IMG/VR virus record: IMGVR_UViG_3300006339_000002
Coordinates: 1-49,939 of that record
Origin: a virus
Strand: one strand, 5' to 3'
Length of the DNA: 49,939 bases
The notes beneath the pieces were generated by a model. It was given only the letters and a program-made list of their open reading frames with translations, was not told the origin of the DNA and searched no databases. Made by a program: the position numbers and the translations under genes. Below, one piece after another: positions 4,446 to 19,384 of the stretch (the stretch's first letter is position 1; each line of letters starts with the position of its first letter).

Positions 4446-4468
4446 TATATATATTGTTAGGTATTGTA

Positions 4469-4669: not shown

Positions 4670-4670
4670 T

Positions 4671-5160: not shown

Positions 5161-5416
5161 GTTTACTTTGTTTATGCAAGTATGCTCATTAGTAGTAGGA
5201 TTATGCAACGAACCTCAACAACATAATATTACTTTTGATAACTACTATGATTGTGTTCTTACAGGCACTCTTATTACTGCAAAAACTTTTGAAAATCTTG
5301 GTGAAGATTATGTTAATAGAACAAATGCAATCGTCAAGAGTTGGTGTGGTAAAGAAATAATTAAAGAAGATAAACCACAGAAAAAGAAAATAAAACTAAA
5401 AGGAAATCCAGTATGA
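5153..5416 (+). CDS. Secreted two-cysteine protein, early paralogue (87 aa)
   Basis: Begins MIKFTLFMQVCSLVVGLC, a signal-peptide-like hydrophobic N-terminus, so the rest is probably periplasmic. It shares a pattern with the protein at 18206-18451 on the other strand: MIK start, cysteine pair near 11 and 18, YDC or RDC near 33, a V..T..I.K..WC/YC block near 55-65, and a C-terminal LKG-x-P-(V/I) ending. The two are clearly paralogues, one in the early block and one at the end of the late operon. The conserved C33 and C65 could form a disulfide. Function unknown; envelope modification or superinfection exclusion are possible. GAGGAG precedes the start. Confidence 0.6.
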   Translation: MIKFTLFMQVCSLVVGLCNEPQQHNITFDNYYDCVLTGTLITAKTFENLGEDYVNRTNAIVKSWCGKEIIKEDKPQKKKIKLKGNPV

Positions 5417-5601
5417 ACAAGAATAAAGAATACATATACATAACAAAAACTATGAAGTTAAATATACCAGCTTTAATTTGTCAAGATGCAGTTGATAAAA
5501 TATTGAGTATGAAAAAACAGGACTTGATACCAAAAGAAATAGGCACGTTATATACAAGATGCAAGGTAAAAGAGAGAGGCAAGAATGCCTATAGATTATA
5601 G
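5413..5601 (+). CDS. Hypothetical protein (62 aa)
   Basis: Unrecognised basic protein with two cysteines (about residues 23 and 50). Couples to the preceding gene by ATGA and overlaps the next by 17 bases. No membrane segment. Confidence 0.55.
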   Translation: MNKNKEYIYITKTMKLNIPALICQDAVDKILSMKKQDLIPKEIGTLYTRCKVKERGKNAYRL

Positions 5602-5884
5602 AAATTTAGTATACCCTTTTAAAGACATGGCTGATACACCATATAGTGTTGTCAGACTTTTAAATGAATGCTATAATGATTATGCAGATGGGAACTTGGG
5701 TGATGGTGAACATATGGCAAGTGGTAAGCAAGTAAGAGGAGAATTTTTAAAACGTATAGCACAGATGGGTTATGATGAGTTAAAGTATAAAGATATAGCT
5801 GATACTTTAGAGGAAGATGTGAGTGAGAATAATCAACACCTTTATCATAAACATTATGAACCAAGTGAACAGGAGGATGAATGA
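5585..5884 (+). CDS. Hypothetical protein (99 aa)
   Basis: Unrecognised soluble protein, with a central YADGNLGDGEHMASGKQVRGEF stretch split here as YADGNLGDG and EHMASGKQVRGEF, an amphipathic helix and an acidic C-terminus. GAGAGAGGC precedes the ATG, which lies inside the end of the previous gene. Confidence 0.6.
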   Translation: MPIDYRNLVYPFKDMADTPYSVVRLLNECYNDYADGNLGDGEHMASGKQVRGEFLKRIAQMGYDELKYKDIADTLEEDVSENNQHLYHKHYEPSEQEDE

Positions 5885-6039
5885 AATATTTAACTGAACA
5901 TGAATTAAGAAAGAGATTAGATAATGAATTTACTGATGTTGATTTAACAATTCATAAATGTGCAACTAAAGGTGTTGTTGCAACAGTTTATTTTTATGAA
6001 AAGAAATTAGACTGGGTACAGGAATGGGAGGATAAATGA
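5881..6039 (+). CDS. Small hypothetical protein (52 aa)
   Basis: Unrecognised; N-terminal helix, then a strand pair around CATKGVVATVYFY, and a Trp-containing acidic C-terminus. AGGAGG just before the ATG; ATGA overlaps with both neighbours indicate coupled translation. Confidence 0.6.
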   Translation: MKYLTEHELRKRLDNEFTDVDLTIHKCATKGVVATVYFYEKKLDWVQEWEDK

Positions 6040-6197
6040 TTGATAAAAGAGTATTAGATTATACAAATCTAACAGATAAAGATGCATTTTATTTATGGAT
6101 GAATGAGTGTCCAGTAAAGGAGGAGTTTACAGATGCGTTTGAAGATGAGAATGATAGATGTGAATTCTATTTTTTTAGAATACCAAAAGATGAATAG
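6036..6197 (+). CDS. Small acidic hypothetical protein (53 aa)
   Basis: Unrecognised acidic protein beginning MIDKRVLDYTNL, with two cysteines and an aromatic cluster (FYFF) near the end. GGGAGG precedes the start. A longer reading frame on the same strand beginning at 6133 overlaps its second half but has no ribosome binding site. Confidence 0.6.
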   Translation: MIDKRVLDYTNLTDKDAFYLWMNECPVKEEFTDAFEDENDRCEFYFFRIPKDE

Positions 6198-6354
6198 AAA
6201 AGAATATAATAAACTATACCATCAAAGACCTGATGTGATAGAAAAGAAAAAGAAATACTTTAAAGAGTATAATACTAGACCTGAAGTTAAACTAGCAAGA
6301 CATGAATGGTATATACAAAAATTAATTAAGGAGTGTACAAATGCCGAGATATAA
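6190..6354 (+). CDS. Small basic hypothetical protein (54 aa)
   Basis: Very basic, Tyr/Lys/Arg-rich (NRKEYNKLYHQRP), a candidate nucleic-acid binder. I start it at 6190, where its ATG overlaps the previous stop by eight bases (ATGAATAG), rather than at 6133. Overlaps the next gene by 14 bases. Confidence 0.55.
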   Translation: MNRKEYNKLYHQRPDVIEKKKKYFKEYNTRPEVKLARHEWYIQKLIKECTNAEI

Positions 6355-6574
6355 AATAACAGAACATCAAACAGGTTGGCAAACATTAGAGAACTTTATT
6401 GATGCTAAAGATAAGGAGGATGCTTACGAAAAACATAATGAGGGTGAGTATGTTAATAAAGAATGGAAGATTATAGATGAAGAGTATAGAAATGTGGATA
6501 CAGATGTAACTGAAGATAGTGAGACGTGGTTAGAGGGACATAAGAAATGGAGAGAGAAGAATGAAAAAGTATAG
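6341..6574 (+). CDS. DpnD/PcfM-like small protein, copy 1 (77 aa)
   Basis: The N-terminal 45 residues follow the pattern of a strand (YKITEHQTG), a second strand ending in IDAKDKEDAYEK and a helix, as in small DpnD/PcfM-like proteins (xYxVxE ... v.A.s.eeA...a). The C-terminus is acidic and Trp-rich. The next gene has the same pattern, so the two look like tandem paralogues. Function unknown. AAGGAG lies before the ATG. Confidence 0.5.
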   Translation: MPRYKITEHQTGWQTLENFIDAKDKEDAYEKHNEGEYVNKEWKIIDEEYRNVDTDVTEDSETWLEGHKKWREKNEKV

Positions 6575-6746
6575 AGTGTGGGGGTATGAAACTCAAGGGT
6601 ATCACATAGACCTTGAGGCAAACAACAAACAGGATGCCCATGATAAAGCTATGGATATTGATAGAGAAGACTGGCAGATAGGTAATGATGGAATGAATAC
6701 TTGCTTTGATATTAATAAAAAGAATATAGAGAGGATAGATAAATGA
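6561..6746 (+). CDS. DpnD/PcfM-like small protein, copy 2 (61 aa)
   Basis: KYRVWGYETQGYHIDLEAN then KQDAHDKA repeats the strand-strand-helix pattern of the preceding gene (YKI ... IDAKDKEDAYEK). The family assignment rests on pattern only. It overlaps its neighbours by 14 and 4 bases. Confidence 0.5.
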   Translation: MKKYRVWGYETQGYHIDLEANNKQDAHDKAMDIDREDWQIGNDGMNTCFDINKKNIERIDK

Positions 6747-6949
6747 GTAATGAATTATATTATAGCAAGAGCAAAGATAAATATATTAAGATAGCAGAGA
6801 TGCCTGATGTTCATGTTAGGAGAGCATTCATTAAGATGAATAGTGAGAAAATGAATAGCTATGATATTGAAAGTACATTAATAAAAATTAGAGATGATAT
6901 ACAAAATTTGCTAGATGAAATATTTGAAGCAAGGAAAGTAGATGAATAA
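6743..6949 (+). CDS. Hypothetical helical protein (68 aa)
   Basis: Unrecognised. N-terminal basic part followed by a likely coiled-coil helix (IRDDIQNLLDEIFEARK) at the C-terminus. Coupled by ATGA to the previous gene. Confidence 0.6.
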   Translation: MSNELYYSKSKDKYIKIAEMPDVHVRRAFIKMNSEKMNSYDIESTLIKIRDDIQNLLDEIFEARKVDE

Positions 6950-7250
6950 AAAGAAAAAGTTTAAAATAAAAAAAGCTATCTATGGTAAGAAAGAATTTAT
7001 CAGTATGATAGAATTAGATTACTACAAGAGGTATGAAATGTTAAAGTTAGATAAAGAATTGATTGATGATGTTCATGTAGCAATAGGCAAAGCAGAGGGC
7101 TATATACCATGCAAGACTTTACATGAAGAGATAATTGCATGGCAATACCTGATAGATACAGGGATAGCGTGGAAATTACAGGGGTGGTTTGGAAGACAAG
7201 CCATGTTTTTAATAGACCAAGGTTTATGTACAAAAAGAGTTGTACATTAA
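6942..7250 (+). CDS. Conserved-looking phage protein (102 aa)
   Basis: Highly basic N-terminus, then HVAIGKAEGYIPCKTLHEEIIAWQYL split as HVAIGKAEGYIPC and KTLHEEIIAWQYL, followed by LQGWFGRQAMFLIDQGLC. The QGWFGR segment resembles proteins of unknown function I recall in other phages. Soluble; no catalytic motif. Overlaps the previous gene by eight bases. A short untranslated gap follows. Confidence 0.65.
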   Translation: MNKKKKFKIKKAIYGKKEFISMIELDYYKRYEMLKLDKELIDDVHVAIGKAEGYIPCKTLHEEIIAWQYLIDTGIAWKLQGWFGRQAMFLIDQGLCTKRVVH

Positions 7251-7273
7251 CTTTAAATATGATATAAGAAAGT

Positions 7274-7417
7274 ATGACACTTAGAGTAAGAAAATTAATA
7301 GTTAGGTTGCGTATGTGGTACGCTAGAATAAGAGGACATAAAGAACATAGGTGGGATTATGAACCTAGTGAATGGTATATGGGTAAACATAACAAAAAAA
7401 ATAAGGAGAAAAAATAA
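7274..7417 (+). CDS. Small Arg/Trp-rich basic protein (47 aa)
   Basis: Unrecognised peptide with a basic amphipathic N-terminus (RVRKLIVRLRMWYARIRG) and a Lys-rich tail. Charge suggests nucleic acid or membrane-surface binding. Its stop directly abuts the next start. Confidence 0.5.
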   Translation: MTLRVRKLIVRLRMWYARIRGHKEHRWDYEPSEWYMGKHNKKNKEKK

Positions 7418-7639
7418 ATGTTTGGAATAGATAAAAAAGAAGAAGTTAAAAAATATATAGTGATGAGAAAGTATAAGGGTGCAGATTATTTTTATACTGA
7501 ACGAGGATTTGCTGATAAAAAATTTGCAGATGCGTATGCTGAATTAATGCTAACTCAAGAACCTGAATATAAATACTTTCTGTTTGAACAAAGCAAAGCA
7601 TATGGGAATGGCGAAGATAAAGGTGAAGATAAAAAATGA
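7418..7639 (+). CDS. Hypothetical protein (73 aa)
   Basis: Unrecognised; YIVMRKYKGADYFYTERGF gives an N-terminal strand pair, followed by a helix and a C-terminal acidic/lysine tail repeating GEDK. AAGGAG lies before the ATG. Confidence 0.6.
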   Translation: MFGIDKKEEVKKYIVMRKYKGADYFYTERGFADKKFADAYAELMLTQEPEYKYFLFEQSKAYGNGEDKGEDKK

Positions 7640-7896
7640 ATGACCCATATCTTGTACAAATAGAAAAAGAAAAAAAACTTTCTCAAGAAATTGTTCATTT
7701 AAGAGAAGAGGTAAAGAACTTACAAGCAGAGGTTAAGTATGAAAGAGAGTTAAGAATAAAGGGTACAGAATATCATCCTACTGATTATCATAGTAGATTA
7801 AGACGGATGATTGAAGTAGTTACAAATGAAAAGAAACTAACTGATTTGTTTGAGATAGTTGATGAGGCACAAACAAGATTAAAGATTGAAAAATGA
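7636..7896 (+). CDS. Coiled-coil protein (86 aa)
   Basis: Residues 8-45 have heptad spacing (KEKKLSQEIVHLREEVKNL), so a coiled coil is likely; the rest is a second helix. The next gene is also coiled coil and is coupled by ATGA, so they may form a complex. Function unknown. Confidence 0.6.
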   Translation: MNDPYLVQIEKEKKLSQEIVHLREEVKNLQAEVKYERELRIKGTEYHPTDYHSRLRRMIEVVTNEKKLTDLFEIVDEAQTRLKIEK

Positions 7897-8135
7897 GTGA
7901 TAAATATTATTGGATGTGGCGTGAAGAAAAAAAGAAACGTGAAGAGGCAGAGGGAGAGACGACTATTGTTAAGGGAATAGGTATGAACTCTCCTGAAATG
8001 AAAGCATTACAGAAGCGTGTTAAGGAATTAGAAAACTCTTTATCTATTGCTCTTGATATTAATGACCAATATCAAAGAGATATGAAAATTAAAGATGAAG
8101 AGATTGGTAGATTATATAATAAAATAAGAACATAA
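7893..8135 (+). CDS. Coiled-coil protein (80 aa)
   Basis: Basic N-terminal helix followed by a leucine-spaced segment (LQKRVKELENSLSIAL) typical of a coiled coil. Coupled to the preceding coiled-coil gene. Its end runs into the CACAATT regulatory motif. Confidence 0.6.
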   Translation: MSDKYYWMWREEKKKREEAEGETTIVKGIGMNSPEMKALQKRVKELENSLSIALDINDQYQRDMKIKDEEIGRLYNKIRT

Positions 8136-8164
8136 TTCTGCCACAATTATATGGTATAAGGAGA
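8131..8164 (+). promoter_or_regulatory. Early-region regulatory motif (third copy) before membrane peptide
   Basis: CATAATTCTGCCACAATTAT (8131-8150) repeats the 2517-2532 motif almost base for base, then TGGTATAAG, which could serve as an extended -10, and a GGAG site for the ATG at 8166. A TATAAT at 8115-8120 lies further upstream. Probably a promoter/operator for the LexA-like gene cluster (inference). Confidence 0.5.
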
Positions 8165-8165
8165 T

Positions 8166-8252
8166 ATGAATAAAGAATTTTTATTATTAATATTATTTTA
8201 TATAATATTTTTTATTGGTGTGTTTAGTATATTAACAATGATACCTAAATAA
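8166..8252 (+). CDS. One-helix membrane peptide (28 aa)
   Basis: Nearly all hydrophobic after MNKE (residues 5-25), one membrane helix. AAGGAGAT gives a good site. It immediately precedes the LexA-like gene and could be co-expressed with it. Function unknown. Confidence 0.55.
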   Translation: MNKEFLLLILFYIIFFIGVFSILTMIPK

Positions 8253-8253
8253 T

Positions 8254-8469
8254 ATGTTAACAAAAAAACAATTAAAGTTATATAAGTATTTAAAGAATTA
8301 CTTTAAAGAGAATGAAGTGATGCCTAGCTTTGAGGAGATGAAAGATTATATGAATGTTAAATCAAAATCTTCTGTCTTTAATATGTTAGGTTATATGGAA
8401 TGGAAGGGATATATAAAAAGATGTCCTGCCCATGCTAGAGCAATACAAATACTAAAGGAGGTAGCTTAA
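8254..8469 (+). CDS. LexA-like winged-helix DNA-binding protein (71 aa)
   Basis: Matches the N-terminal DNA-binding domain of LexA: LTKKQLKLYKYLKNYF, then MPSFEEMKDYMNVKSKSSVF for the recognition helix region, and a wing ending GYIKRCPAHARAIQIL. The peptidase half of LexA is absent, so it would not self-cleave. It likely regulates phage or host transcription; LexA-type SOS sites or the CACAATT motifs just upstream are possible targets (inference). It overlaps the next gene by one base. Confidence 0.7.
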   Translation: MLTKKQLKLYKYLKNYFKENEVMPSFEEMKDYMNVKSKSSVFNMLGYMEWKGYIKRCPAHARAIQILKEVA

Positions 8470-8930
8470 TGCATAAGTATAGTAAAGAGACTACTAAATA
8501 TAAAGATATATCTAATGAGGATAAAGTGTTTACATCCCTAGATAAATATGATAGTAATGAAACTGATAAACTTGGTATGTTATTGGCTCATTTAAGTATG
8601 CCACAGATGTGTGCTAGTTGGGTGAGTGAAGATGATTTTAATTCCTTATTGGAGAAATATAAAATAGATATTACTCCTTATGTTAAGGATGATACAAGAG
8701 TAACTACATCTATTAAAGGTGAAATACAAAGTGAACTATTTCATTTAATAGATAAAGATAAATATAAGAAAAGAAACCTGATAAAAGCATTAAGAAATGA
8801 ATTTCCTGATGTAAATTCAGGAGTGATATGTAGGATGATTAAGAAATTATTATCTTTAAGAGTACTTGAGATAGACAGAACATACAAAACTAAGCCCTTT
8901 GTTATTAAAGGAAAGTACTATATTAATTAA
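8469..8930 (+). CDS. Hypothetical protein, possible winged-helix C-terminus (153 aa)
   Basis: Unrecognised. The first 50 residues are polar; residues 85-153 look helical with a final strand pair (RVLEIDRTY ... VIKGKYYIN), the shape of a winged helix that could sense or bind DNA. It is cotranscribed with the LexA-like gene (TAATG overlap, AAGGAGG site), which supports a regulatory role. Low certainty on function. Confidence 0.65.
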   Translation: MHKYSKETTKYKDISNEDKVFTSLDKYDSNETDKLGMLLAHLSMPQMCASWVSEDDFNSLLEKYKIDITPYVKDDTRVTTSIKGEIQSELFHLIDKDKYKKRNLIKALRNEFPDVNSGVICRMIKKLLSLRVLEIDRTYKTKPFVIKGKYYIN

Positions 8931-9102
8931 TACAACTTATAGTTGAAAGGAGTATGTAAGTCATTGATTTTATTGAAGAATTTTTATTTTACAGAGCCGT
9001 TCTCAAGGGGTGTTATGGACAGTATAATAGTAGTACTCCCAATAAAAAATAGATGGGAGAAATCCGTTTATTATACTAAATAACATTTTGTGGAATAGGA
9101 CT
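8931..9102 (+). other. Longest early gap: hairpin, start-stop and short frames
   Basis: It begins with a hairpin CAACTTATAGTTG (8933-8945) and a strong AAAGGAG (8946-8952), followed by ATG TAA at 8954-8959, a start codon directly followed by a stop. A frame starting at TTG 8964 or ATG 9015 (the latter with AAGGGG upstream) runs to 9083 and would give 39 or 22 residues. CTCCC/GGGAG can pair around 9036-9059. No recognisable protein. Confidence 0.4.
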
Positions 9103-9366
9103 ATGGCAAATAAATTCTTTATGAAAAAATCTTGGGTAAATGTAGATATGTGCATTGAAGATTATTATAATTCAGGTACAGATTATTACAAGGCGAAAGA
9201 GAATTTAAACTGGAGTCCCTATTCAAGTATAGTTGGTAAAGAAGTGAAATGGGAAAGAAATACTGTGGAAGAAATTGATGAAGAAACCTACAAAAATAAA
9301 ATCAAGAAATCCAATAGCAAAAGTATTGATGACAAGAAAGTTTCACTCAAAGATTGTAAGGAATAA
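9103..9366 (+). CDS. Hypothetical protein (87 aa)
   Basis: Unrecognised. N-terminal MANKFFMKKSWVNVDMC, then a Tyr-rich middle and a Lys/Ser-rich acidic-basic tail. AGGA before the ATG at 9103 favours it over an in-frame TTG at 9088. Leads into the DNA-metabolism block. Confidence 0.55.
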   Translation: MANKFFMKKSWVNVDMCIEDYYNSGTDYYKAKENLNWSPYSSIVGKEVKWERNTVEEIDEETYKNKIKKSNSKSIDDKKVSLKDCKE

Positions 9367-9410
9367 AAAACCTGAACTCATTACCAAGTACTATGACAAC
9401 AAAATGAAAT

Positions 9411-9764
9411 ATGATACTTAATAAAAATATTCCTACGAGTTGGAATTCAGGAATGGGAGAAGGCAGAGCTATAACTCCTCATGCTCTTTTATGGAGGAGT
9501 GTTATAGTAAGAGCTGTCATGGATGCCCTTGATATAGATATTCATGCATGGGGTAGACAAAGAAAAAGAATAGTCCAAGATGCAACGTCTTGGTTTAATG
9601 TTAATGACCCACACTTCTGTGAGGTTTGCGACCACTCAAATTTTGAACCATCCTTTATTGTTAAGATTTTTAAAAAATTAGTTAAAGCTAATACTAAAAA
9701 ATTATTTGAACATAAAAATCTAAATAAATTTTTAACTCAATATCTTTGTACGTTTCATCATTAA
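9411..9764 (+). CDS. Phage protein of unknown function (117 aa)
   Basis: Segment IVQDATSWFNVNDPHFCEVC split as IVQDATSWFNVND and PHFCEVC, followed by FEPSFIVKIF, recalls small proteins of phages and alphaproteobacterial prophages. The order aromatic-Trp helix, D-P-x-F-x-x-V-C, then helix suggests a compact helical DNA-associated domain, but no function is known to me. No good ribosome binding site; the start is by default. Confidence 0.65.
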   Translation: MILNKNIPTSWNSGMGEGRAITPHALLWRSVIVRAVMDALDIDIHAWGRQRKRIVQDATSWFNVNDPHFCEVCDHSNFEPSFIVKIFKKLVKANTKKLFEHKNLNKFLTQYLCTFHH

Positions 9765-9767
9765 TAT

Positions 9768-10157
9768 ATGGGAGATTTAAATAAAACATCTACATTTGAT
9801 ATTGATTTAAAGTATGGACAGATAAGAGAAAAAAGAGTAGCTGATTTATTTAAAGGTGGTAAGGTAGAAGTTAAGACTGAACGTAGTTGGTGGAGAAAGA
9901 CAGGGAATATTGCTATTGAGTATGAGTTTAGAGGTAAGCCAAGTGGTATAGATAAGACTGAAGCTAAGTGGTGGTTTCAAGTATTAGAACTTAATGGTAA
10001 AGAATATTGTATGATAGTTTTTAGAGTATCAAGATTAAAAAAAATAGTAGCTAAGTATAAGAAGACACATACAAAAGATATAGGAGATTACAGAGCATCT
10101 AAGTGTGTAGTCATACCTATTAAAGAATTATATACAGAGAAATGTTATGAACTTTAA
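9768..10157 (+). CDS. PD-(D/E)XK endonuclease, resolvase-like (129 aa)
   Basis: A small nuclease of the PD-(D/E)XK fold, size and context matching the junction-resolving endonuclease I (gp3) position of T7-type phages. Visible residues: acidic E21 in the first helix, the core E34-V-K36 strand (VEVKTERSWW), and TGN (46-48) followed by EYEFRGKPSGI, a stretch I recall in phage and bacterial proteins of this type. D13 or E21 probably completes the metal site. It would cleave branched DNA during replication and packaging or degrade host DNA. Lies just before the replication genes. Confidence 0.7.
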   Translation: MGDLNKTSTFDIDLKYGQIREKRVADLFKGGKVEVKTERSWWRKTGNIAIEYEFRGKPSGIDKTEAKWWFQVLELNGKEYCMIVFRVSRLKKIVAKYKKTHTKDIGDYRASKCVVIPIKELYTEKCYEL

Positions 10158-10167
10158 GGGAGGAACA

Positions 10168-10254
10168 ATGGATAAAATATATACAGGTGCAGGAGTGGTG
10201 AGTATTATAACAGTAATGAGTGTAGTAGTTTATATTATAATTGCAGGAATATAA
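10168..10254 (+). CDS. One-helix membrane peptide (28 aa)
   Basis: Residues 7-28 are a continuous hydrophobic helix (GAGVVSIITVMSVVVYIII). GGGAGGA gives a strong site six bases before the ATG. Function unknown; one of several membrane peptides in this window. Confidence 0.6.
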   Translation: MDKIYTGAGVVSIITVMSVVVYIIIAGI

Positions 10255-10256
10255 TT

Positions 10257-10454
10257 ATGGGAATGATGGATGGTGGTCATAACTTTAAAGATAATTGTAG
10301 GACTTGTAATAAAGATGAAAATGGTGGTACTATGAGAAGGTATGTTCACGAAAGAAATACAAAGATATGTTTAAATTGTTTTGAAAAATTAGATGTTGTT
10401 AAACGACAAGAATATGTTTTTGCTAGTCAATTAAATAGAAATAGATTATTATAA
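10257..10454 (+). CDS. Zinc-ribbon-like small protein (65 aa)
   Basis: Two CxxC knuckles, CRTC (about residues 14-17) and CLNC (38-41), separated by about 20 residues that include RRYVHERNTK, as in a zinc ribbon. Basic tail. Probably binds nucleic acid or a protein partner. Alternative starts at the third or fourth codon exist. Confidence 0.65.
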   Translation: MGMMDGGHNFKDNCRTCNKDENGGTMRRYVHERNTKICLNCFEKLDVVKRQEYVFASQLNRNRLL

Positions 10455-10888
10455 TGAAAAAATATTTAGCAATAATACTTGGATTATTATTAACTGGATG
10501 TAATCAGTTGGCTATGCTATCAGTAGTGGGAAGTACTGCAAGTTTAGTTGCAAATAATAATGCTTTAGTTAAAACTTATAGTGGCTTAGATGTTGCAACC
10601 TTTATGTCAACTGATAAAGATATTAAAACTCATGCATATGAAATAGTAACAAGTGTGAAAAAAGTTGCGAATGAAACTTTTATATTAGAAACACCTATCA
10701 CATTGGAAAGTGAGAAAAGAGTTTTGGTTGCTCTTCCAATTATTGAAGTTAAAATTTCTGAAGTATTAACAGTTGATGATGGATTTTATGTTGTAAAAAA
10801 CTTTGAAAATTATAGAAGTAAAGAAGATATAGAATGGGAAATAGAATCTGAAGGATGGAAAAAGATATACTCAAAATATTATGAATAA
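10454..10888 (+). CDS. Lipoprotein (144 aa)
   Basis: Signal peptide with a lipobox: MKKYLAIILGLLLTGC, cysteine at 16, then the mature protein anchored in an envelope membrane. The mature N-terminus is small-residue-rich (GSTASLVANNNALVKTYSGLD) and followed by a mixed alpha-beta domain. It resembles phage lipoproteins I recall of unknown role. Early-expressed lipoproteins often block superinfection, which is an inference here. Starts in a TAATG overlap with the zinc-ribbon gene. Confidence 0.75.
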   Translation: MKKYLAIILGLLLTGCNQLAMLSVVGSTASLVANNNALVKTYSGLDVATFMSTDKDIKTHAYEIVTSVKKVANETFILETPITLESEKRVLVALPIIEVKISEVLTVDDGFYVVKNFENYRSKEDIEWEIESEGWKKIYSKYYE

Positions 10889-11009
10889 ACCTAGATGTAA
10901 AAATTGTAATTGTCTTTGTCATTGTAATGTGCTAGAGCATTCTGATATGCTTGGAGTGTGTCCATGTACTAATTGTGATTGCATAGAAGTGTGTGAGGCG
11001 TGTCAATAA
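10881..11009 (+). CDS. Cysteine-rich mini-protein (42 aa, 11 Cys)
   Basis: Eleven of 42 residues are cysteines, at 6, 9, 11, 13, 15, 27, 29, 32, 34, 38 and 41, in two clusters (CKNCNCLCHC and CPCTNCDC). This looks like a metallothionein-type or double zinc-binding peptide. It starts inside the last codons of the lipoprotein gene (eight-base overlap), with no ribosome binding site of its own, so translation probably depends on coupling. Such composition is far from random in AT-rich DNA (Cys codons TGT/TGC are uncommon here), which supports it being real. Confidence 0.6.
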   Translation: MNKPRCKNCNCLCHCNVLEHSDMLGVCPCTNCDCIEVCEACQ

Positions 11010-11012
11010 AAT

Positions 11013-11294
11013 ATGAGTGAACGAGATTTAATTAGAGAATATAAAAATACTATTGCAGATTTAACTAAAGAAAAAGATGATGCAATTCAATTAGTTTCTC
11101 AAAAAGATTCTAAAATAAAACAATTACTTATTCAGGTTGAACAAGCTAATGCAGATGTTCACACTATGGGAAAAAAAATTAAGGACTTAGACGAAAAAGC
11201 TAGGAAAAACGCCACTTTTAAGAGGATAATCCATGCTAAGATAGACCAAGTTTTAGAAAAAAAAGATGAGGATGACGTTGACAAGGAAGAATAA
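11013..11294 (+). CDS. Coiled-coil protein (93 aa)
   Basis: Mostly one long helix with heptad spacing (IADLTKEKDDAIQLVSQ ...), acidic-basic alternation and an acidic tail DEDDVDKEE. Located directly before the ssDNA-binding protein; the acidic tail is reminiscent of proteins that dock onto replication partners, but no function can be given. Confidence 0.6.
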   Translation: MSERDLIREYKNTIADLTKEKDDAIQLVSQKDSKIKQLLIQVEQANADVHTMGKKIKDLDEKARKNATFKRIIHAKIDQVLEKKDEDDVDKEE

Positions 11295-11339
11295 TTATGA
11301 TACAAGATAATAAACAATTAATAAAAAGGAAAAAAACAT

Positions 11340-11789
11340 ATGGCAATAATTGAAGGTACAGCTTACTGGGCTTCTCTAATAAGACCAAACGAAAAGTTTG
11401 AACCTATGTGGAGAATTGATTTGGCAGTAGATGATACAACTGCACAAGATTTTAAAACTAAAGGTTTCTCAGTTGGTGAAACTAAAGCTGATGATAAAGT
11501 AGTAAATAATATTATCAGATTTAAACGAAAAGTTTCAAAAGCAAATGGAGACAAAAATCAACAACCACAATTAGTGGATGGTGAAAAGAATCCTATTGAA
11601 AAAATAGTTGGTAATGGCAGTAAAGTAAAAGTAATGTATAAATCTTATGACTGGAATTTTAAAGGTAAGAAGGGCAAAGGTTTAGATTTACAAGCTGTAC
11701 AGGTACTCGACTTAGTGGAATATACTCCTAGGGAAGATTTTAATATAGAAAAATCTTCTAATGGTGTTGACATCAAAGAAGATTTTTGA
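11340..11789 (+). CDS. Single-stranded DNA-binding protein, T7 gp2.5-like (149 aa)
   Basis: A replication ssDNA-binding protein. Evidence: small size, an OB-fold-like run of strands (IIEGTAYWASLIRPNEKF, WRIDLAVDD, IIRFKRKV, KVKVMYKSYDWNFKGKKGKG, LDLQAVQVLDLVEY), and an acidic C-terminal tail ending D-F, the hallmark by which gp2.5 contacts the polymerase and primase-helicase. It is shorter than T7 gp2.5 (232 residues). It is immediately upstream of primase-helicase and polymerase. AAAAGG precedes the start. A promoter-like sequence lies in its last codons. Confidence 0.8.
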   Translation: MAIIEGTAYWASLIRPNEKFEPMWRIDLAVDDTTAQDFKTKGFSVGETKADDKVVNNIIRFKRKVSKANGDKNQQPQLVDGEKNPIEKIVGNGSKVKVMYKSYDWNFKGKKGKGLDLQAVQVLDLVEYTPREDFNIEKSSNGVDIKEDF

Positions 11790-11795
11790 TACAAC
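11767..11795 (+). promoter_or_regulatory. Candidate promoter for primase-helicase leader
   Basis: TTGACA (11767-11772), 17-base spacer, TACAAC (11790-11795) with TG in extended position. It overlaps the end of the ssDNA-binding gene. Transcription would begin near 11802, exactly at the first hairpin of the leader. Confidence 0.4.
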
Positions 11796-11801
11796 ATTAA
11801 T

Positions 11802-11878
11802 AGTCATAGTAGATGACTCCTATTTTCTACCTCCTAGAGGAGAGTTGGCTTGTGGTAAGTCAGCTCTCCTTTTTTTTT
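11802..11878 (+). terminator. Attenuator-like leader with strong rho-independent terminator
   Basis: Three hairpins in order: AGTCAT/ATGACT (11802-11818), CTCC/GGAG (11831-11842), and a 13-pair stem 11839-11851 with 11857-11869 (two G-U pairs) followed by nine T (11870-11878). The second hairpin uses bases of the terminator's 5' arm, so the two cannot form together. The terminator separates the ssDNA-binding gene from primase-helicase only 24 bases downstream. Confidence 0.8.
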
Positions 11879-11901
11879 GAAAACTAATTATGAGGGCGAC
11901 C

Positions 11902-13533
11902 ATGGAACAAACTAAAACTGGCTTTGTAAAGTATCACTTACCTTGTCCATTATGTAAGAGTAGTGATGCAGTATCTGTTAATGCAGATAGTTCGGCTTAT
12001 TGTTTTTCGTGTATGCAATTTATAAAAGAATATGATATGGAAACACAACCGATAACAAATGGTAAACAAAAATATAAAATGAATACTTCTACAACTCAAT
12101 CAGATTTTGTAGAAATAGTAGACAGAAATCTTTCAGAAAATACTTGTAGAAAATATGGGGTTACTGTTAAGTTAGATAGTATGGGTAGTATAATAAACCA
12201 TTATTATCCTTATCACGATAGACAAGGTGCAAAAATTGCAACCAAGACAAGGTATACAAAATTAAAAGAATTTAGTTTAGATGGTAATACAAGTCAAGCA
12301 GGATTATTTGGTGAACATTTATTCTCTAAAAATAAATTTATAATAATAACTGAAGGTGAGTTAGATTGTTTATCAGCATATCAAATGTTTGATAAAGGTA
12401 AGTACACTACTCCAGTTGTAAGTATTAAACATGGTGTAGCTTCTGCAGTTAAAGATATTAAGAGTAGTCTTGAATACTTAGAACAATTTGAAAATATTAT
12501 AATTAATTTTGATAATGATGAGCAAGGTAAAGAGGGTGCGTTTAGAGTAGCTGAATTATTTTCTCCTGGGAAATGTAAAATTATGTCTCTCCCTGAAGAA
12601 TTTAAAGATGCTTCGGATTGTTTAATTAAAAATAAGATACAGATTTATACTAAAGCATTTTGGGATGCAAAACGATTTGCTCCTGATGGTATTATTAATG
12701 CCAATACTTTATTTGATGAGATAAGTAAACCTGCTGTACAATCATTTGTTCAGTATCCTTTTGAAGGATTAAATAAAATGACTTATGGTTTACGAACTTC
12801 TGAATTAGTTACCTTTACTGCAGGTAGTGGGTTAGGTAAGACTCAAGTAGTTAGAGAATTAATCCATCATTTATTAAAACAAACAGAAGAGAAACTTGGT
12901 TTATTAATGTTGGAAGAAACTCCAGTAATAACTTCTAAAGGGATAATGAGTATTGAAGCAAATCAAAGATTACATTTACCTGATGTTCATATTGGTAAAG
13001 AAGAATTAAGAAAATATTTTGATGCTACTGTGGGTACTGGTAGGATATTTATGTTTGACCATTTTGGTTCAAACTCTATTGATAATATAATTTCTAGAGT
13101 TAGGTATTTAGCAAAAGGTTTAGATTGTAAATATATTATTATAGACCATGTTAGTATAATAGTATCAGACCAGTCTCATGGAGATGAGAGAAGAGCATTG
13201 GATGAAATCATGACTAGACTTAGAACTCTTGTACAAGAGACTGGAGTTGGTATGATAGTAGTATCACATTTAAGGAGACCTGATGGCAAGGGACATGAGG
13301 AAGGTGCCTCTACGTCTCTCTCACAGCTAAGAGGGAGTGCTTCTATAGGTCAGTTAAGTGATATGGTTATTGGACTTGAGAGAGATGCACAGAATGATGA
13401 CCCTGAAATCCGACATACTACAAGGGTTAGAGTATTAAAGAATAGATTCTCAGGTATTACTGGACCATGTTGTGATTTAAAATATGATATGGATACTGGT
13501 AGATTAGCAGAGGTAACATCAAGTGATTTTTGA
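11902..13533 (+). CDS. DNA primase-helicase, T7 gp4-like
   Basis: Bifunctional replication enzyme that makes RNA primers and unwinds DNA as a hexamer. Numbering from the first in-frame ATG at 11890: zinc-binding domain with C19, C22, C38, C41; TOPRIM primase with ITEGELDC (E155) and FDNDEQG (D208, D210); linker; RecA-like helicase with Walker A AGSGLGKT (311-318), Walker B YIIIDH, and the SHLRRP and QLRGSASIGQ motifs typical of gp4/DnaB. I place the start at 11902, six bases after GAGGG; 11890 has no site. Length about 543 residues, close to T7 gp4 (566). Preceded by a terminator, so expression needs the upstream promoter, read-through or antitermination. Confidence 0.93.
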   Translation: MEQTKTGFVKYHLPCPLCKSSDAVSVNADSSAYCFSCMQFIKEYDMETQPITNGKQKYKMNTSTTQSDFVEIVDRNLSENTCRKYGVTVKLDSMGSIINHYYPYHDRQGAKIATKTRYTKLKEFSLDGNTSQAGLFGEHLFSKNKFIIITEGELDCLSAYQMFDKGKYTTPVVSIKHGVASAVKDIKSSLEYLEQFENIIINFDNDEQGKEGAFRVAELFSPGKCKIMSLPEEFKDASDCLIKNKIQIYTKAFWDAKRFAPDGIINANTLFDEISKPAVQSFVQYPFEGLNKMTYGLRTSELVTFTAGSGLGKTQVVRELIHHLLKQTEEKLGLLMLEETPVITSKGIMSIEANQRLHLPDVHIGKEELRKYFDATVGTGRIFMFDHFGSNSIDNIISRVRYLAKGLDCKYIIIDHVSIIVSDQSHGDERRALDEIMTRLRTLVQETGVGMIVVSHLRRPDGKGHEEGASTSLSQLRGSASIGQLSDMVIGLERDAQNDDPEIRHTTRVRVLKNRFSGITGPCCDLKYDMDTGRLAEVTSSDF

Positions 13534-15205
13534 TAAAGTAATATTTGATATTGAAACAACTATTACTGCCGATAAAATTTGGTGCATCATTTGTAAACAT
13601 AATAATACTTATTATCAATTTAAAGAAGATAGACTAAATAGGTTTGAAGAGTTTATAAAAAAAACTAAAGAAATTATAGGACATAATATAATTGGATTTG
13701 ATATTCCAGTTTTAAATAAATACTTTGGTTATGATTTATTTAAAAATTGTAAAGTAACTGATACATTAGTTTTATCTAGACTACTTAATCCTATGATAGA
13801 AGGTGGTCATTCATTAAAAAATTGGGGTGAAAAACTCTATCATAAAAAAACAGAGTTTGATATCTTTGATAAATTTAGTGAAGAGATGTTAAAGTATTGT
13901 AGGAATGATGTTAATTTAACAGAAAAATTATATAACTTTCTTTGTAAAAAAATGACAGACTTTGGAGAGTCTATTCCATTGGAGCATGAGGTTGCAAAGA
14001 TTATACAACGACAACATCAAAAAGGATTTTTAATAGATGTTGTAGGTGCTCATATGTTACAGGCAAAGTTTCAGGAAGATATGAATAACCTACAATTAAT
14101 TGTAAGAAAAACTTTTCCTCCATTAAAAGTAGAAACAGAATTTATTCCTAAGTCTAATAATAAAACGAGAGGATATGTAAAGGGAGTTCCTTTTACAAAG
14201 GTTAAATATAAAGAATTTAATTTAGGTTCACGTCAACAAATAGCTGAACGATTAGTATTACTGGGATGGAAACCTAAAAAGAAAACAGATAAAGGACATA
14301 CAATAGTTGATGAAAAAGTTTTATCAGAGATTAAAACTATTCCTGAAGCTGAACTTATAAAAAAATTTCTCATGCTTCAAAAAAGAATTGCTCAAGTCAG
14401 TTCTTGGATTGAAGCTATCAGAGAAGATGGTAGAGTACATGGCAAAGTAATTACCAATGGTACAGTTACAGGAAGAATGAGCCATCAATCGCCCAATATG
14501 GCACAGGTTCCTGCTGTGTACTCACCTTATGGAAAAGAATGTAGGGCATTATGGATAGTAAATAAAGGTTATAAATTAGTAGGTGTTGATGCTTCAGGAC
14601 TTGAGTTGAGGATGTTAGCACATTACATGAACGATAAAGGATATACAAATGAAATCATTAATGGAGATATACACACAACAAATCAAATTAATGCTGGTTT
14701 GGGGTCAAGAGATGAGGCGAAGACATTTATTTACGCACTCATCTATGGAGCAGGTTCAAAAAAAATCGGAAGTATCATCAAAAGGTCTGAAGGAGATGGA
14801 GAAAGAGTTAAAGAAAAATTTCTTAGAGCTACACCAAGTTTTAAACGACTACGAGAAAGAGTGGATGGAGTGGCTAAAAAAAGATGGCTCAGAGGTCTCG
14901 ACCAAAGAAAAATCCTCATAAGACACCCTCACGCTGCATTAAACACGCTATTACAGGGTGCTGGTGCGTGTGTTATGAAGAAAGCGTTGACAAGGGTAGA
15001 GGATTATGTTATAAAGAATCAAATAAAAGCATTTCCAATTGTAAATGTACATGATGAATTCCAATATGAAGTGGAAGAAAGCCGAGCCGAAGAATTTGGA
15101 AAGCTTGGAGTACAGGCAATTATAGATGCAGGAAAGGAATTAAAAATAAGGTGTCCGTTAGATGGAAAATATAAAATCGGAAACAACTGGGCAGAAACGC
15201 ATTGA
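13523..15205 (+). CDS. Family A DNA polymerase, T7-like (560 aa)
   Basis: Replicative polymerase with proofreading. N-terminal 3'-5' exonuclease: FDIETT (D9, E11), GHNIIGFD (N55, D60) and YCRNDVNLT. Polymerase: motif A GVDASGLELRML, motif B RDEAKTFIYALIYGAG, motif C VNVHDEFQ. At 560 residues it is much shorter than T7 gp5 (704), and no long thioredoxin-binding insertion is apparent. It starts with GTG inside the end of primase-helicase (11-base overlap), with AGAGG ten bases upstream, so the two are coupled. The exonuclease gene begins within its last 44 bases. Confidence 0.93.
   Translation: MIFDKVIFDIETTITADKIWCIICKHNNTYYQFKEDRLNRFEEFIKKTKEIIGHNIIGFDIPVLNKYFGYDLFKNCKVTDTLVLSRLLNPMIEGGHSLKNWGEKLYHKKTEFDIFDKFSEEMLKYCRNDVNLTEKLYNFLCKKMTDFGESIPLEHEVAKIIQRQHQKGFLIDVVGAHMLQAKFQEDMNNLQLIVRKTFPPLKVETEFIPKSNNKTRGYVKGVPFTKVKYKEFNLGSRQQIAERLVLLGWKPKKKTDKGHTIVDEKVLSEIKTIPEAELIKKFLMLQKRIAQVSSWIEAIREDGRVHGKVITNGTVTGRMSHQSPNMAQVPAVYSPYGKECRALWIVNKGYKLVGVDASGLELRMLAHYMNDKGYTNEIINGDIHTTNQINAGLGSRDEAKTFIYALIYGAGSKKIGSIIKRSEGDGERVKEKFLRATPSFKRLRERVDGVAKKRWLRGLDQRKILIRHPHAALNTLLQGAGACVMKKALTRVEDYVIKNQIKAFPIVNVHDEFQYEVEESRAEEFGKLGVQAIIDAGKELKIRCPLDGKYKIGNNWAETH
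14987..15015 (+). promoter_or_regulatory. Candidate promoter inside DNA polymerase
   Basis: TTGACA (14987-14992), 17-base spacer, TATAAA (15010-15015) with TG in extended position. It could give extra transcription of the exonuclease gene at 15162. It lies in conserved coding sequence, so chance is a real possibility. Confidence 0.3.
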
Positions 15206-16091
15206 TACAATAGCAACTGATATTAAAAAATTAGTAGCTGGTATATCAAATGGTAAACCTGCTAACGTAACAGAAGAGAACATGGATAAGTTCCTTAGTA
15301 ATATTAAGGAAGCTTTTAATTCATGGAACAATCCTATTAGAGAAAAAGATGGGAAGTTAAGAATGTCTGTGCTAGGTAAACCACCTAGACAATTATGGTA
15401 TGATAGATTTAGTCCAAAGAAAACTAAAGATTATGATGCTAGTTTAAATATTAAATTTTTATATGGACATATATTAGAACATTTATTATTATATCTAGCA
15501 GAATTAACTGGACATAAAGTAGCAGACCAACAAAAGAAAGTAGAGATAGATAATATTAAAGGACATATAGATGCGACAGTAGATGGTGAAGTATGTGATG
15601 TTAAGTCAGCTTCAACATTTAGTTTTAAGAAATTTAAAACAGGTGAGTTAGTTGGAGATGACCCATTTGGTTATCATGCCCAGCTATCAGGATATGAAAC
15701 AGGTATGAAGACTAACAAAGGTGGCTTCTTGGTTATGGATAAATCAACTGGAGATGTTTGTTTCTATAAACCTGATGAGTTAGCTAAACCTAATGTTCCA
15801 ACTTTAATTAAAACTTTACAAGATACATTAAAAAGAAATTCACCACCTGATAGGTGTTATCAATTATCTGAAACTAAAGGTGGAAATAAATCTTTACCTA
15901 TTGGTTGTCAGTTTTGTGCACATAAATGGGAATGTTATAAAGATGCTAATGATGGAAAAGGATTAAGAGTATTTAAATATTCTAATAGATATGTTTATTT
16001 AGCTGAAGTAAATAGACAACCGAATGTTGAAGAGATAACTCCAAACTTTTCAGAGGAATTAAAAACTTATGGAAAAAGAAAAGCTGTATAA
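15162..16091 (+). CDS. PD-(D/E)XK exonuclease with Cys cluster (309 aa)
   Basis: A RecB/Cas4-type nuclease in the position where T7-type phages encode their 5'-3' exonuclease. Visible active-site residues: E106 in the first helix, D137 (KGHIDATVDG), D146-V-K148, and HAQLSGYETG with Q174 and Y178 (the QxxxY motif). After the nuclease core there is C249-x2-C252-x5-C258, the spacing of the Cas4/AddB iron-sulfur staple, with C232 (or C145) as possible fourth ligand. It would process DNA ends for recombination and degrade host DNA. Overlaps polymerase by 44 bases and the SET gene by 23. Confidence 0.8.
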   Translation: MENIKSETTGQKRIDTIATDIKKLVAGISNGKPANVTEENMDKFLSNIKEAFNSWNNPIREKDGKLRMSVLGKPPRQLWYDRFSPKKTKDYDASLNIKFLYGHILEHLLLYLAELTGHKVADQQKKVEIDNIKGHIDATVDGEVCDVKSASTFSFKKFKTGELVGDDPFGYHAQLSGYETGMKTNKGGFLVMDKSTGDVCFYKPDELAKPNVPTLIKTLQDTLKRNSPPDRCYQLSETKGGNKSLPIGCQFCAHKWECYKDANDGKGLRVFKYSNRYVYLAEVNRQPNVEEITPNFSEELKTYGKRKAV

Positions 16092-16461
16092 ACCATTACC
16101 TGAAGGACTTAGAATTGAGAAGAGTAAGATACAGGGATTTGGTTTGTCTACTTTATTGTTTCTAAAACAGGGTACAAATCTTGGAACATCTCATATTAAG
16201 ATAAAGGATGAATTAATTCGTACACCTTTAGGTGGATTTGTAAATCATTCAGATGACCCTAATTGTGTTAAAACAAAATTACATACTGATAATTATATTA
16301 AATATAATTTAGTTACTATAAAAGATATTGCAGGAGGAGAAGAACTAACTGTTAAATATACTTTTTATAATATGAGTAGTAATGGTTCTCAAACAATATC
16401 TGAAAAATTACAGGATGAATTAGAACCTATTGTTAATGCTCCTATGATGGATACAGAATAA
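16069..16461 (+). CDS. SET-domain protein, putative lysine methyltransferase (130 aa)
   Basis: A compact SET domain: IQGFGLST (the G-x-G S-adenosylmethionine motif, 21-28), GGFVNHSDDPNC (NHS at 59-61), KDIAGGEELTVKY with Y97 and Y100 for the lysine channel. It lacks the cysteine post-SET region. It likely methylates a lysine of a host or phage protein; the substrate is unknown. SET proteins are mainly eukaryotic but also occur in bacteria and phages. Placed within the replication operon, it might modify a replication or chromosome-associated protein (inference). Confidence 0.75.
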   Translation: MEKEKLYKPLPEGLRIEKSKIQGFGLSTLLFLKQGTNLGTSHIKIKDELIRTPLGGFVNHSDDPNCVKTKLHTDNYIKYNLVTIKDIAGGEELTVKYTFYNMSSNGSQTISEKLQDELEPIVNAPMMDTE

Positions 16462-16772
16462 TGAATACAAAACAAATGAGTAGGATAAGAAACAAAGCTA
16501 AACATATTATGGTTGAATGGCTTAAAGGTTTATTAAATCCTGAAGAACAAAAGAAAGTTAATATTAAAAATGTATTTGAATTATTACCTAATCAAACACA
16601 TTATTGGCAAGGAACTACTCTACGTTTACAACCTTGGTCTTATAAATGGATTGTTAAAAAATTAAAAAAGAATCCTCATTGGACTATAGATGATTTGAAT
16701 AATAGTTTAGAACCTACAGAAAGAGACAAGAGAAGAGCAAGGATGGCTGAAGAAGGTCCTCTTGCTATGTAA
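16461..16772 (+). CDS. Hypothetical basic protein (103 aa)
   Basis: Unrecognised, rich in Lys, Trp and Asn, with HYWQGTTLRLQPWSYKWIVK in the middle and a helical ending with RDKRRARMAEEG. The basic character and the location between SET and DUF3310 genes suggest a DNA-associated role. Begins in TAATG overlap with the SET gene. Confidence 0.65.
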   Translation: MNTKQMSRIRNKAKHIMVEWLKGLLNPEEQKKVNIKNVFELLPNQTHYWQGTTLRLQPWSYKWIVKKLKKNPHWTIDDLNNSLEPTERDKRRARMAEEGPLAM

Positions 16773-16774
16773 TT

Positions 16775-16839
16775 AAGTGGGAGTGTTAATTAATTATGAA
16801 AGGAAAATTGTTAATAAACTATATGTATGTCTCCCACTT
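16775..16839 (+). other. Long-range 9-base inverted repeat between genes
   Basis: AAGTGGGAG (16775-16783) and CTCCCACTT (16831-16839) are perfectly complementary across 47 bases that include a TTAATTAATTA stretch. It lacks a T-run on the 3' side, so it is not a standard terminator; it may be an RNA processing or stabilising structure. It fills the gap before the DUF3310 gene. Confidence 0.55.
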
Positions 16840-16859
16840 GTTTCATTTAGGAATAAGTT

Positions 16860-17102
16860 ATGACAAGTAAAGATATGTTTAAAGGTACTACCTATACTTC
16901 ATTAAGTAAACAAGTGGATGGGTCTCATTATAGTCATATGAAGATTCAACCTGCAGAATTTATTAATGAAAATAATTTAGAGTTTGCAGAAGGTAATGCT
17001 ATTAAATATATTTGTAGACATCAAAGAAAAGGAAAGAGGAAGGATATAGAAAAAGCTATACATTATTTAGAAATGATATTGGAAAGGGATTATGACGATT
17101 AA
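16860..17102 (+). CDS. DUF3310 family protein (80 aa)
   Basis: The pattern QVDGSHYSHMKIQPAEFI, then EGNAIKYICRH and KDIEKAIHYLEMIL is that of DUF3310 proteins, widespread in phages and sometimes annotated as nucleotide kinases without evidence of activity. The fold resembles MazG-like helical proteins by pattern only. It overlaps the next gene by 11 bases. Confidence 0.8.
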   Translation: MTSKDMFKGTTYTSLSKQVDGSHYSHMKIQPAEFINENNLEFAEGNAIKYICRHQRKGKRKDIEKAIHYLEMILERDYDD

Positions 17103-17442
17103 TGAAGCACAAATAACTCAATTAGAAAAAAGAGCTAGAGGATTTAGAAGAATTATTTCAGCTCTTAATGATTTACCTATGTATGGAATTAATCCATCTA
17201 TAGATAAAATTTTGTATGTAAGAATAGGTGAATTAAAAAACCATCTAAAAAAGAAGATAACTAGAAATAATGAAAAGTTAAATGAACTAAATACAACAAG
17301 TATAGATACTTTAATAGATGATGATGGACAAAGTGGTGCTATCGGTGAGGTTAATACTGAACCAAGTTTTGTTAGTAAAGATTATTTTGCAGAAAAAATT
17401 AAGCAAATAGAAGTTGATAATACAGAGGCTGTAGATGAATGA
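17092..17442 (+). CDS. Hypothetical helical protein (116 aa)
   Basis: Unrecognised. Residues 5-65 are helical and basic, the rest is polar and acidic and probably unstructured. Overlaps neighbours on both sides by 11 and 8 bases. No motif. Confidence 0.6.
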   Translation: MTINEAQITQLEKRARGFRRIISALNDLPMYGINPSIDKILYVRIGELKNHLKKKITRNNEKLNELNTTSIDTLIDDDGQSGAIGEVNTEPSFVSKDYFAEKIKQIEVDNTEAVDE

Positions 17443-17638
17443 AGAACAAGATAGGGCTACAGCATCTACTTATGAAGATGAAGTTACTTCACAAAGAACT
17501 GTAACAATTCCATTAAGAGAGTATGATAAGTTAAAAGAAGAACAATCTTTTATAAAAGATAAATCTTTAATTTCTATTATAGATAAAGTTGAAGAACTTA
17601 TAAGGGCTTTACGAAAACGTATTATAAGAGAGAAGTAG
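17435..17638 (+). CDS. Small coiled-coil protein (67 aa)
   Basis: Polar N-terminus, then a helix with heptad spacing (LREYDKLKEEQSFI ... IDKVEELIRALRKRI). Starts within the previous gene and its stop is directly followed by the next ATG. Function unknown. Confidence 0.6.
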   Translation: MNEEQDRATASTYEDEVTSQRTVTIPLREYDKLKEEQSFIKDKSLISIIDKVEELIRALRKRIIREK

Positions 17639-17977
17639 ATGGAAGAAAACGGCAAAGTTTTTTCCATTAAGGGAGAACCTATTAAGCAAGGTAAATCTCC
17701 TATCTATCATATGAGATTATGTTTAGTAGGTTCGGATGATATAGATTTAGAAAATATTCAAACCTTTGGTATAGCAGATGATGGCTTTTTTATGGTAAAA
17801 AGTTTTAATAATTTACGACTACCAATTTTTATGACAAATCCTATGAGAATTAAAAGTGTAGAAATTTATAAGAAGGGCGACAAACCTTTAACTAAATTAA
17901 AAAAAGAAAAAGCTGATGATGATTTCTTGGTTGATTTATTAAGAAAGAATAATGTTGCCCAGTCGAAAATTAAATAA
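17639..17977 (+). CDS. Hypothetical protein (112 aa)
   Basis: Unrecognised alpha-beta protein with GIADDGFFMVKSFNNLRLP in the middle and a basic helical tail. No membrane segment. Overlaps the last + strand gene by 26 bases. Confidence 0.6.
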   Translation: MEENGKVFSIKGEPIKQGKSPIYHMRLCLVGSDDIDLENIQTFGIADDGFFMVKSFNNLRLPIFMTNPMRIKSVEIYKKGDKPLTKLKKEKADDDFLVDLLRKNNVAQSKIK

Positions 17978-18209: not shown

Positions 18210-18224
18210 ATAGGAGTTCCTTTT
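18202..18224 (+). terminator. Convergence hairpin 1
   Basis: ACTCCT (18202-18207), loop AGAT, AGGAGT (18212-18217), then TTCCTTTT. It includes the stop codons of both converging genes and could stop both directions, though on the - strand no T-run follows directly. Confidence 0.6.
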
Positions 18225-19380: not shown

Positions 19381-19384
19381 CCAT

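Follow-up and report, generated by a model that had tools for sequence, protein, structure and literature searches.

A conserved RNA element at the SSB-primase junction of HTVC103P-type pelagiphages and its possible action as a translation-gated terminator

Introduction

Why would a phage place both a promoter and a strong intrinsic terminator between two genes of one replication operon? The question arises in a 49,939-base virus record (hereafter the window, meaning the whole stretch analysed), at the junction between the genes for a single-stranded DNA-binding protein (SSB) and a primase-helicase. A sequence-only reading of this junction had described a promoter at the end of the SSB gene, a 5' hairpin, and a small hairpin competing with a strong terminator, and had proposed that the arrangement controls replication gene expression, perhaps through SSB, host factors or translation state.

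The phage and its replication genes

Over 75% of 6 kb, the replication region of the window shares about 80% identity with Pelagibacter phages HTVC103P and HTVC104P, and by sequence the phage is an HTVC103P-type pelagiphage, whose host is the ocean bacterium SAR11. The gene order is SSB, primase-helicase, DNA polymerase and Cas4-domain exonuclease. The counterpart of the SSB gene in HTVC103P and HTVC104P is annotated as a (putative) ssDNA-binding protein; in the window its last codons, GVDIKEDF*, include the −35 box of the promoter, and its stop codon TGA occupies 11787-11789. The primase probably starts at ATG 11902, after AGGGCGACC, because ATG 11890 is absent from many relatives whereas AGGGYGA..ATG is retained; this start agrees with the distance of 24 bases between terminator and primase given in the sequence-only reading. 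The interval from the T run to the primase start, 11 to 23 nt, is too short to hold a whole separate promoter past 11878. Elsewhere in the window, a terminator-like hairpin (18202-18217) marks the meeting point of the rightward and leftward gene blocks, and a 1523-aa protein (21386-25957, minus strand) carries a phage lysozyme domain (PF00959) near its C-terminus.

Table 1. Features at the SSB-primase junction, in window coordinates.
Feature	Position	Strand	Basis
gp2.5-like ssDNA-binding protein (SSB) gene	11340-11789	+	PHROG phrog_112, E 8.6e-11
Predicted sigma70-type promoter, TTGACA-17-TACAAC	11767-11795	+	sequence; motif class above chance; synonymous sites in −35 box
5' hairpin 1, 6 pairs, AGTCAT/ATGACT	11802-11818	+	fold; predicted transcript start ~11802
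Short frame ATG..TAA, 24 aa, MTPIFYLLEESWLVVSQLSFFFEN	11813-11887	+	crosses terminator; no Shine-Dalgarno-like site
CU-rich unpaired linker, CUCC at 11831-11834	11819-11838	+	conservation
Small hairpin CTCC(TAGA)GGAG, proposed competitor	11831-11842	+	drawable on paper; 4 contiguous pairs
Intrinsic terminator (hairpin 2), 13-pair stem and nine T	11839-11878	+	sequence, fold, covariation
DNA primase-helicase gene	11902-13533 (mechanical ORF from 11890)	+	PHROG phrog_239, E 3.8e-182

A promoter within the SSB gene

The predicted promoter comprises a −35 box TTGACA (11767-11772), a 17-nt spacer and a −10-like TACAAC (11790-11795), which matches TATAAT at 4 of 6 positions and has TG one base 5' of it. 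A general promoter scan returned 117 sites against 120.8 expected, and it is uninformative on the site studied since its rule, T as the last −10 base, leaves that site out. TTGACA-17-TANAA, a pattern defined after the site was seen, occurs five times in the window against 0.62 expected, with 0 of 100 shuffles containing as many, and the site studied is one of the five. Given this excess and the positions of the sites ahead of genes, these phages seem as a group to have a recognisable class of promoter, and the count slightly strengthens the promoter reading. The four further sites are 11278-11305 (+), 14987-15014 (+), 21355-21382 (−) and 41744-41771 (−); the first directly precedes the SSB gene, and two others lie in gaps before leftward genes. 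Two near-perfect sigma70 matches, with TG before the −10, are also present in the early region, at 4569-4542 (−; 12/12) and 5649-5677 (+; 11/12).

That synonymous codon choice in the SSB tail holds the −35 box is supported by comparison of 72 distinct SSB genes with a VD-I/N tail. The synonymous positions within TTGACA read Val GTT in 72/72 and Asp GAC in 65/72, compared with 356/903 and 257/856 for the same codons in the bodies of those genes, while other Asp codons near the SSB end are GAC in 14/123 cases; because the sequences are related, we attach no probability to this bias. A clade with a different SSB tail, VDNIKEF, retains TTGACA-17-TATA. Judged by its sequence and by −35 codon choice, the promoter that the sequence-only reading placed at the end of the SSB gene is real and conserved. 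Host RNA polymerase likely transcribes the element, since PF00940 RNA polymerase has no match in the window, HTVC103P, HTVC104P or HTVC115P; HTVC019P, the positive control, matches.

Structure and conservation of the leader RNA

The terminator lies between the promoter and the first structural gene. Its arms, GGAGAGTTGGCTT and AAGTCAGCTCTCC, span 11839-11869 and are followed by nine T at 11870-11878, and it has the most pairs among the 12 terminator-like sites found on both strands of positions 1-20000, where 4.2 (sd 1.7) are expected from shuffles. On the plus strand the 96-nt leader has a folding energy of −29.9 kcal/mol (z −4.15), a value that 1 of 200 shuffles equals or undercuts; for the opposite strand z is −1.77, with 9 of 200 as low.

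Three primase-guided searches gave 80 loci of 141 relatives, 80 of 148, and 54. From the first we read 77 loci together with HTVC103P, HTVC104P and HTVC115P, omitting three whose DNA begins within the primase (L013, L014, L030); three more are cut inside the element (L009, L039, L070). The second contributed 44 new loci and the third 15 of its 54. A pattern scan returned 114 stretches, of which 45 were added as loci after filtering for TTGACA within 80 bases; by contig name, 21 of the 45 lie on contigs already in the set, and the remainder of the 114 look like chance matches. In total, the element is present in 167 of 169 upstream regions, on 146 records and as 77 distinct sequences. In the HTVC115P sister clade, the corresponding gap is ~20-30 nt and no element was found (15 loci by eye; 0/8 by model). 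A model of the element (R1) matches all 29 element-bearing loci outside its alignment from among the 44 new ones, the weakest (L214) at E 0.23. On this comparison of sequences, the segment is a conserved RNA element of HTVC103P-type pelagiphages.

Compensatory changes in related phages, which the sequence-only reading had named as a check, are found in the terminator stem: in the first set (27 of 33 distinct elements), 97.1% of its cells are paired and 10 of its 13 pairs have changed on both sides. Taking both helices together, 62 cells have changed on both sides, against 17.1 in shuffles (0/500 as many). The helix of hairpin 1 is paired in 80.9% of cells in this set (A1). In a distant set (A2; 29 further loci, 23 distinct), whose alignment was fitted to the model, the stem remains paired in 97.0% of cells and hairpin 1 in only 46.7%. 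RNAalifold recovers the terminator stem unaided and not hairpin 1, and single folds place a 5' hairpin in each of 33 distinct elements, at a position that varies. The 5' hairpin and strong terminator of the sequence-only reading are therefore present, by fold and covariation, and conserved. Three stem positions carry recurrent G.U pairs on the plus strand (U.G 22/27, G.U 25/27, U.G 15/27); since these would be A.C on the other strand, the molecule under selection is the plus-strand RNA.

Among distinct elements, 58 have both the promoter and the T run, 12 have neither, 6 have the T run only (one of them, L070, a contig-end artefact) and 1 has the promoter only. The 12 that have lost both TTGACA and the T run (L061, L207 and their kin) retain hairpin 2, which there cannot be an intrinsic terminator because the T run is gone. 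Termination is thus not the sole thing kept, because the hairpin and CUCC persist where promoter and T run are both absent. We also considered the joint loss of promoter and T run as a correlated trait and rejected it: on the primase tree (97 rows) each changes 4 times, which is too few, and there is no significance.

Many of these observations would also fit a simpler explanation, to which we give a modest chance: the hairpin merely lowers read-through and protects the 3' end of the SSB mRNA, and the internal promoter adds transcripts, with no sensing involved. The expected outcome, much SSB and less primase and polymerase, suits the general rule that SSB is required in larger amounts than primase. 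The covarying stem and the promoter box are compatible with it, and retention of the hairpin where the T run is lost is what a 3'-end protector would predict. It leaves unexplained, however, the conserved blocks of the linker and the short frame that runs through the terminator, described below.

The element appears to be single in these genomes, the best second match in the window or in HTVC103P 1-50000 having E 1.4 and lying beside the known site. A search of the host family, with stricter filters at which weak matches are lost, matched 2 of 197 genomes (L537, L538); both are antisense to a host gene start plus terminator and were judged chance rather than host copies. A search of bacterial genomes for primase relatives found none among 10 pattern matches. 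In the HTVC103P group, L001, L002, L071-L076 and others have an extra ~85-107 nt between terminator and primase, directly after the T run, containing a small frame that is hydrophobic by eye.

No conserved competing hairpin

The sequence-only reading proposed two exclusive folds, in which SSB or a comparable factor would stabilise the small CUCC/GGAG hairpin and so block the terminator. We regard this as very unlikely. A stem of at least 4 pairs can be drawn between CUCC and the 5' arm of the terminator in 35 of 41 distinct linker-arm pairs, but the other six give fewer than 4, and stems between a linker and its own arm average 4.00 pairs compared with 4.11 after swapping. The mean folding energy of swapped arms is as low as or lower than that of the native ones in 299 of 300 swaps; because swapping leaves the pairing equal or improves it, nothing indicates that pairing in the small hairpin is what maintains CUCC. 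CUCC is also retained where the small stem cannot form (L001, L071). Folding the alternative structures, as the sequence-only reading had suggested, gives −6.2 kcal/mol for the small hairpin segment of the window against −29.9 for the whole leader, and the hairpin is not co-conserved; as a conserved antiterminator, with no covariation and with the outcome of the swap test, it is not supported. A conserved, covarying alternative pairing was not found among the 41 linker-arm pairs. A linker-loop pseudoknot, CUAC/GUAG, was likewise rejected (own 4.30, swapped 4.48; 455 of 500 swaps as high or higher).

A short frame through the terminator

A feature absent from the sequence-only reading is a short frame whose start codon, ATG or GTG, lies within hairpin 1 or close to it and which, in the window, stops 14 nt before the primase ATG. 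An ATG/GTG frame passes through CUCC in 56 of 56 distinct elements, with 13-29 codons within the stretch examined and in three phases (25/20/11). ATG frames of at least 20 codons through CUCC occur in 47 of the 56; with shuffled upstream sequence the number is 13.5 on average and 23 at most. With ATG copies weighted over 15 linker clusters, 14.1 of 17.4 stay open until close to the element's end, compared with 38% of triplets in general, and ATG is the top-ranked triplet by number of clusters. This open-frame test was made after the data were seen, and its clusters are not independent of one another, being related. An ATG/GTG frame that stops >28 nt beyond the first base of CUCC is present in 164 of 166 loci. 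These stops precede the primase ATG by 8-39 nt, or by ~105-126 nt where the extra stretch is present, or else overlap it. A stricter rule considers only the first ATG following the SSB stop and requires its frame to extend beyond the hairpin; 62 of 73 distinct elements pass, 3 of them with the primase ATG itself, leaving 59. Of the eleven that fail, L023, L098 and L148 lack any ATG frame reaching beyond the hairpin, and L032, L034, L035, L051, L060, L226, L230 and L233 pass only if a later ATG or a GTG is taken as the start.

The idea that the frame encodes a functional small protein, with RNA structure secondary, is extremely improbable. Nearly all relatives examined have the open frame, often with a hydrophobic start, but its phase takes all three values across clades and shifts between close relatives, as between L078 and L263, whose RNA element is retained, and no peptide residues are conserved across clades by eye. 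The leader frame seems to be kept for its openness rather than for its peptide or phase. Before the first ATG, where this is not the primase's own, a Shine-Dalgarno-like site is found in 0 of 70 distinct elements, and in several clades the start ATG lies inside the stem of hairpin 1. Control by translation state, one of the options in the sequence-only reading, gains support from the short frame, which in nearly all of the relatives examined runs across the terminator; the lack of a Shine-Dalgarno-like site counts against a translated leader.

A possible translation-gated terminator

The pyrBI operon of E. coli has a U-rich pause site and a 44-residue leader frame (pyrL) that ends just before pyrB. 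In its attenuator, the ribosome translating a leader peptide passes over an intrinsic terminator, and its tight coupling to the polymerase prevents termination (PMC5021804, PMC4824070). The phage element is alike in having a leader frame that runs through an intrinsic terminator and ends near the next gene. It differs in having no Shine-Dalgarno site and a 24-aa frame instead of the 44-aa frame of pyrBI; no pyrimidine gene is involved, the element sits inside a replication operon, and no signal is known. Because its leader frame has no ribosome-binding site (0/70), we describe the element as possibly working like a pyrBI-type attenuator and do not count it as a member.

Since the short frame would reach the terminator, as coupled leader translation does in pyrBI, we tentatively favour the reading of this conserved control element as a translation-gated terminator with a pyrBI-like layout. 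While the parts of the element are well supported, the switching is a proposal; transcription, termination, translation, gating and the gating signal (coupling or nucleotide supply) we infer from the sequence. Host RNA polymerase would start at ~11802 or arrive from upstream genes and by default would stop at 11870-11878, yielding an RNA of ~77 nt. A ribosome on 11813-11887, close behind the polymerase, would prevent the terminator from folding, and transcription would then continue into the primase, polymerase and exonuclease genes. Hairpin 1 and the U-rich linker could serve as polymerase pause sites. Lacking a Shine-Dalgarno site, translation might start near the 5' end (~11 nt from the predicted transcript start) or be taken up by ribosomes finishing SSB 23 nt upstream; and because the stop of the short frame falls just short of the primase start or overlaps it, ribosomes finishing this frame may restart at the primase.

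In E. coli, a stop codon no more than ~27-30 nt upstream of the hairpin leads to suppression of the tR2 terminator (PMC4824070). In the window the SSB stop lies 46-49 nt before the terminator hairpin, beyond that distance, so SSB translation alone should not block the terminator. Two conserved linker blocks are left unexplained by translation gating.

The linker as a candidate small RNA

These blocks, UCAUU and CUCC, are the antisense of a Shine-Dalgarno sequence, spacer and AUG. They point to another explanation, in our view unlikely: a ~77-nt small RNA of the 3'-UTR type, with its own promoter in the SSB gene, whose linker UCAUU...CUCC blocks ribosome-binding sites of phage or host mRNAs. 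The promoter in the upstream gene and the T run are both present in 58 of 77 distinct elements, and in 12 of the 15 linker clusters a CAT is found 5-10 nt upstream of CUCC (2.1 clusters on average in shuffles; 0/1000), although the window's own linker is without the CAT block.

The best hybridising site is the same tail-fibre-like gene start in HTVC103P (gp71, −18.6 kcal/mol) and in the window (43699, minus strand, −19.4 kcal/mol), and the core linker of the window alone also puts it first. In HTVC103P, however, the core alone ranks this site 12th and the whole RNA 8th, and shuffles that keep CUCC rank it first in both phages in 4.3% of cases. Linkers swapped between HTVC103P and the window bind equally well (−18.7 and −20.1), so there is no specificity, and the letters of the target site are set by the gene upstream, whose end lies there. 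As a single target, the tail-fibre-like gene is weak under both controls and was rejected. Its ribosome-binding site AGGAGGAAGAAGATAA (window 43699, minus strand; HTVC103P 41357, minus strand), which doubles as the end of the upstream gene's frame, has identical letters in most of the related loci printed.

Hosts were scanned with two linkers at up to 2 mismatches in 197 genomes, with the reversed pattern as control. The first linker had 11 matches in 11 of the genomes (reversed, 10), 4 of the 11 at possible gene starts of four different proteins; the second had 19 matches in 17 genomes, an excess over the 5 of the reversed pattern, with 0 of 19 at a possible gene start. That no gene start recurs slightly weakens the idea of a host target. 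Hfq (PF17209) has no match in 60 of 60 Pelagibacteraceae genomes, whose completeness is unstated, and the E. coli and Caulobacter controls match. The small-RNA explanation is weakened by this result together with the failure to find a convincing target.

Known small RNAs offer partial parallels. As described in PMC9438474, MicX-type 3'-UTR small RNAs, with an ORF-internal promoter, resemble the phage element in having a promoter at the end of a coding gene; unlike them, the candidate RNA is known from sequence alone, with no Hfq match in the host family and no convincing target. The alphaproteobacterial anti-Shine-Dalgarno RNAs ar14/NfeR1 and AbcR share with it a conserved, CU-rich unpaired motif and variable stems (PMC10746234), but the phage motif is CUCC and not CCUCCUCCC, there is one motif rather than three, and no Rfam family matches. 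PreS and VpdS are, like it, phage-encoded short RNAs tied to phage replication, but in PMC12197685 they are described as Hfq-binding and belong to other hosts, and the comparison is by description only. Across the whole window, Rfam, including the ar14 and AbcR families, gave 0 matches at gathering scores; when E values up to 5 were allowed, the only match near the element was Ref1C (E 4.1), whose 20 bits compare with a gathering score of 90. No pelagiphage regulatory RNA was found in the open-access literature searched. The searched text of PMC8528129, which mentions HTVC103P, contains no mention of a promoter, terminator or noncoding RNA, and a term search of PMC2704228, on structured RNAs of the host, returned none of phage.

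The two roles could in principle be combined, in a dual-purpose 77-nt leader that acts in cis as a translation-gated terminator and in trans as an Hfq-independent RNA against ribosome-binding sites; we consider this improbable. If it were true, SSB, primase and polymerase output would be tied to ribosome-polymerase coupling via a phase-free leader frame, and an RNA switch would have been conserved throughout an entire group of SAR11 phages. Few biological systems in the sea are as abundant as SAR11 and its phages, and at this locus an ocean phage may adjust the expression of its replication genes to the host's translation state, with no involvement of Hfq. The linker also resembles what we take to be a SAR11 16S rRNA probe site.
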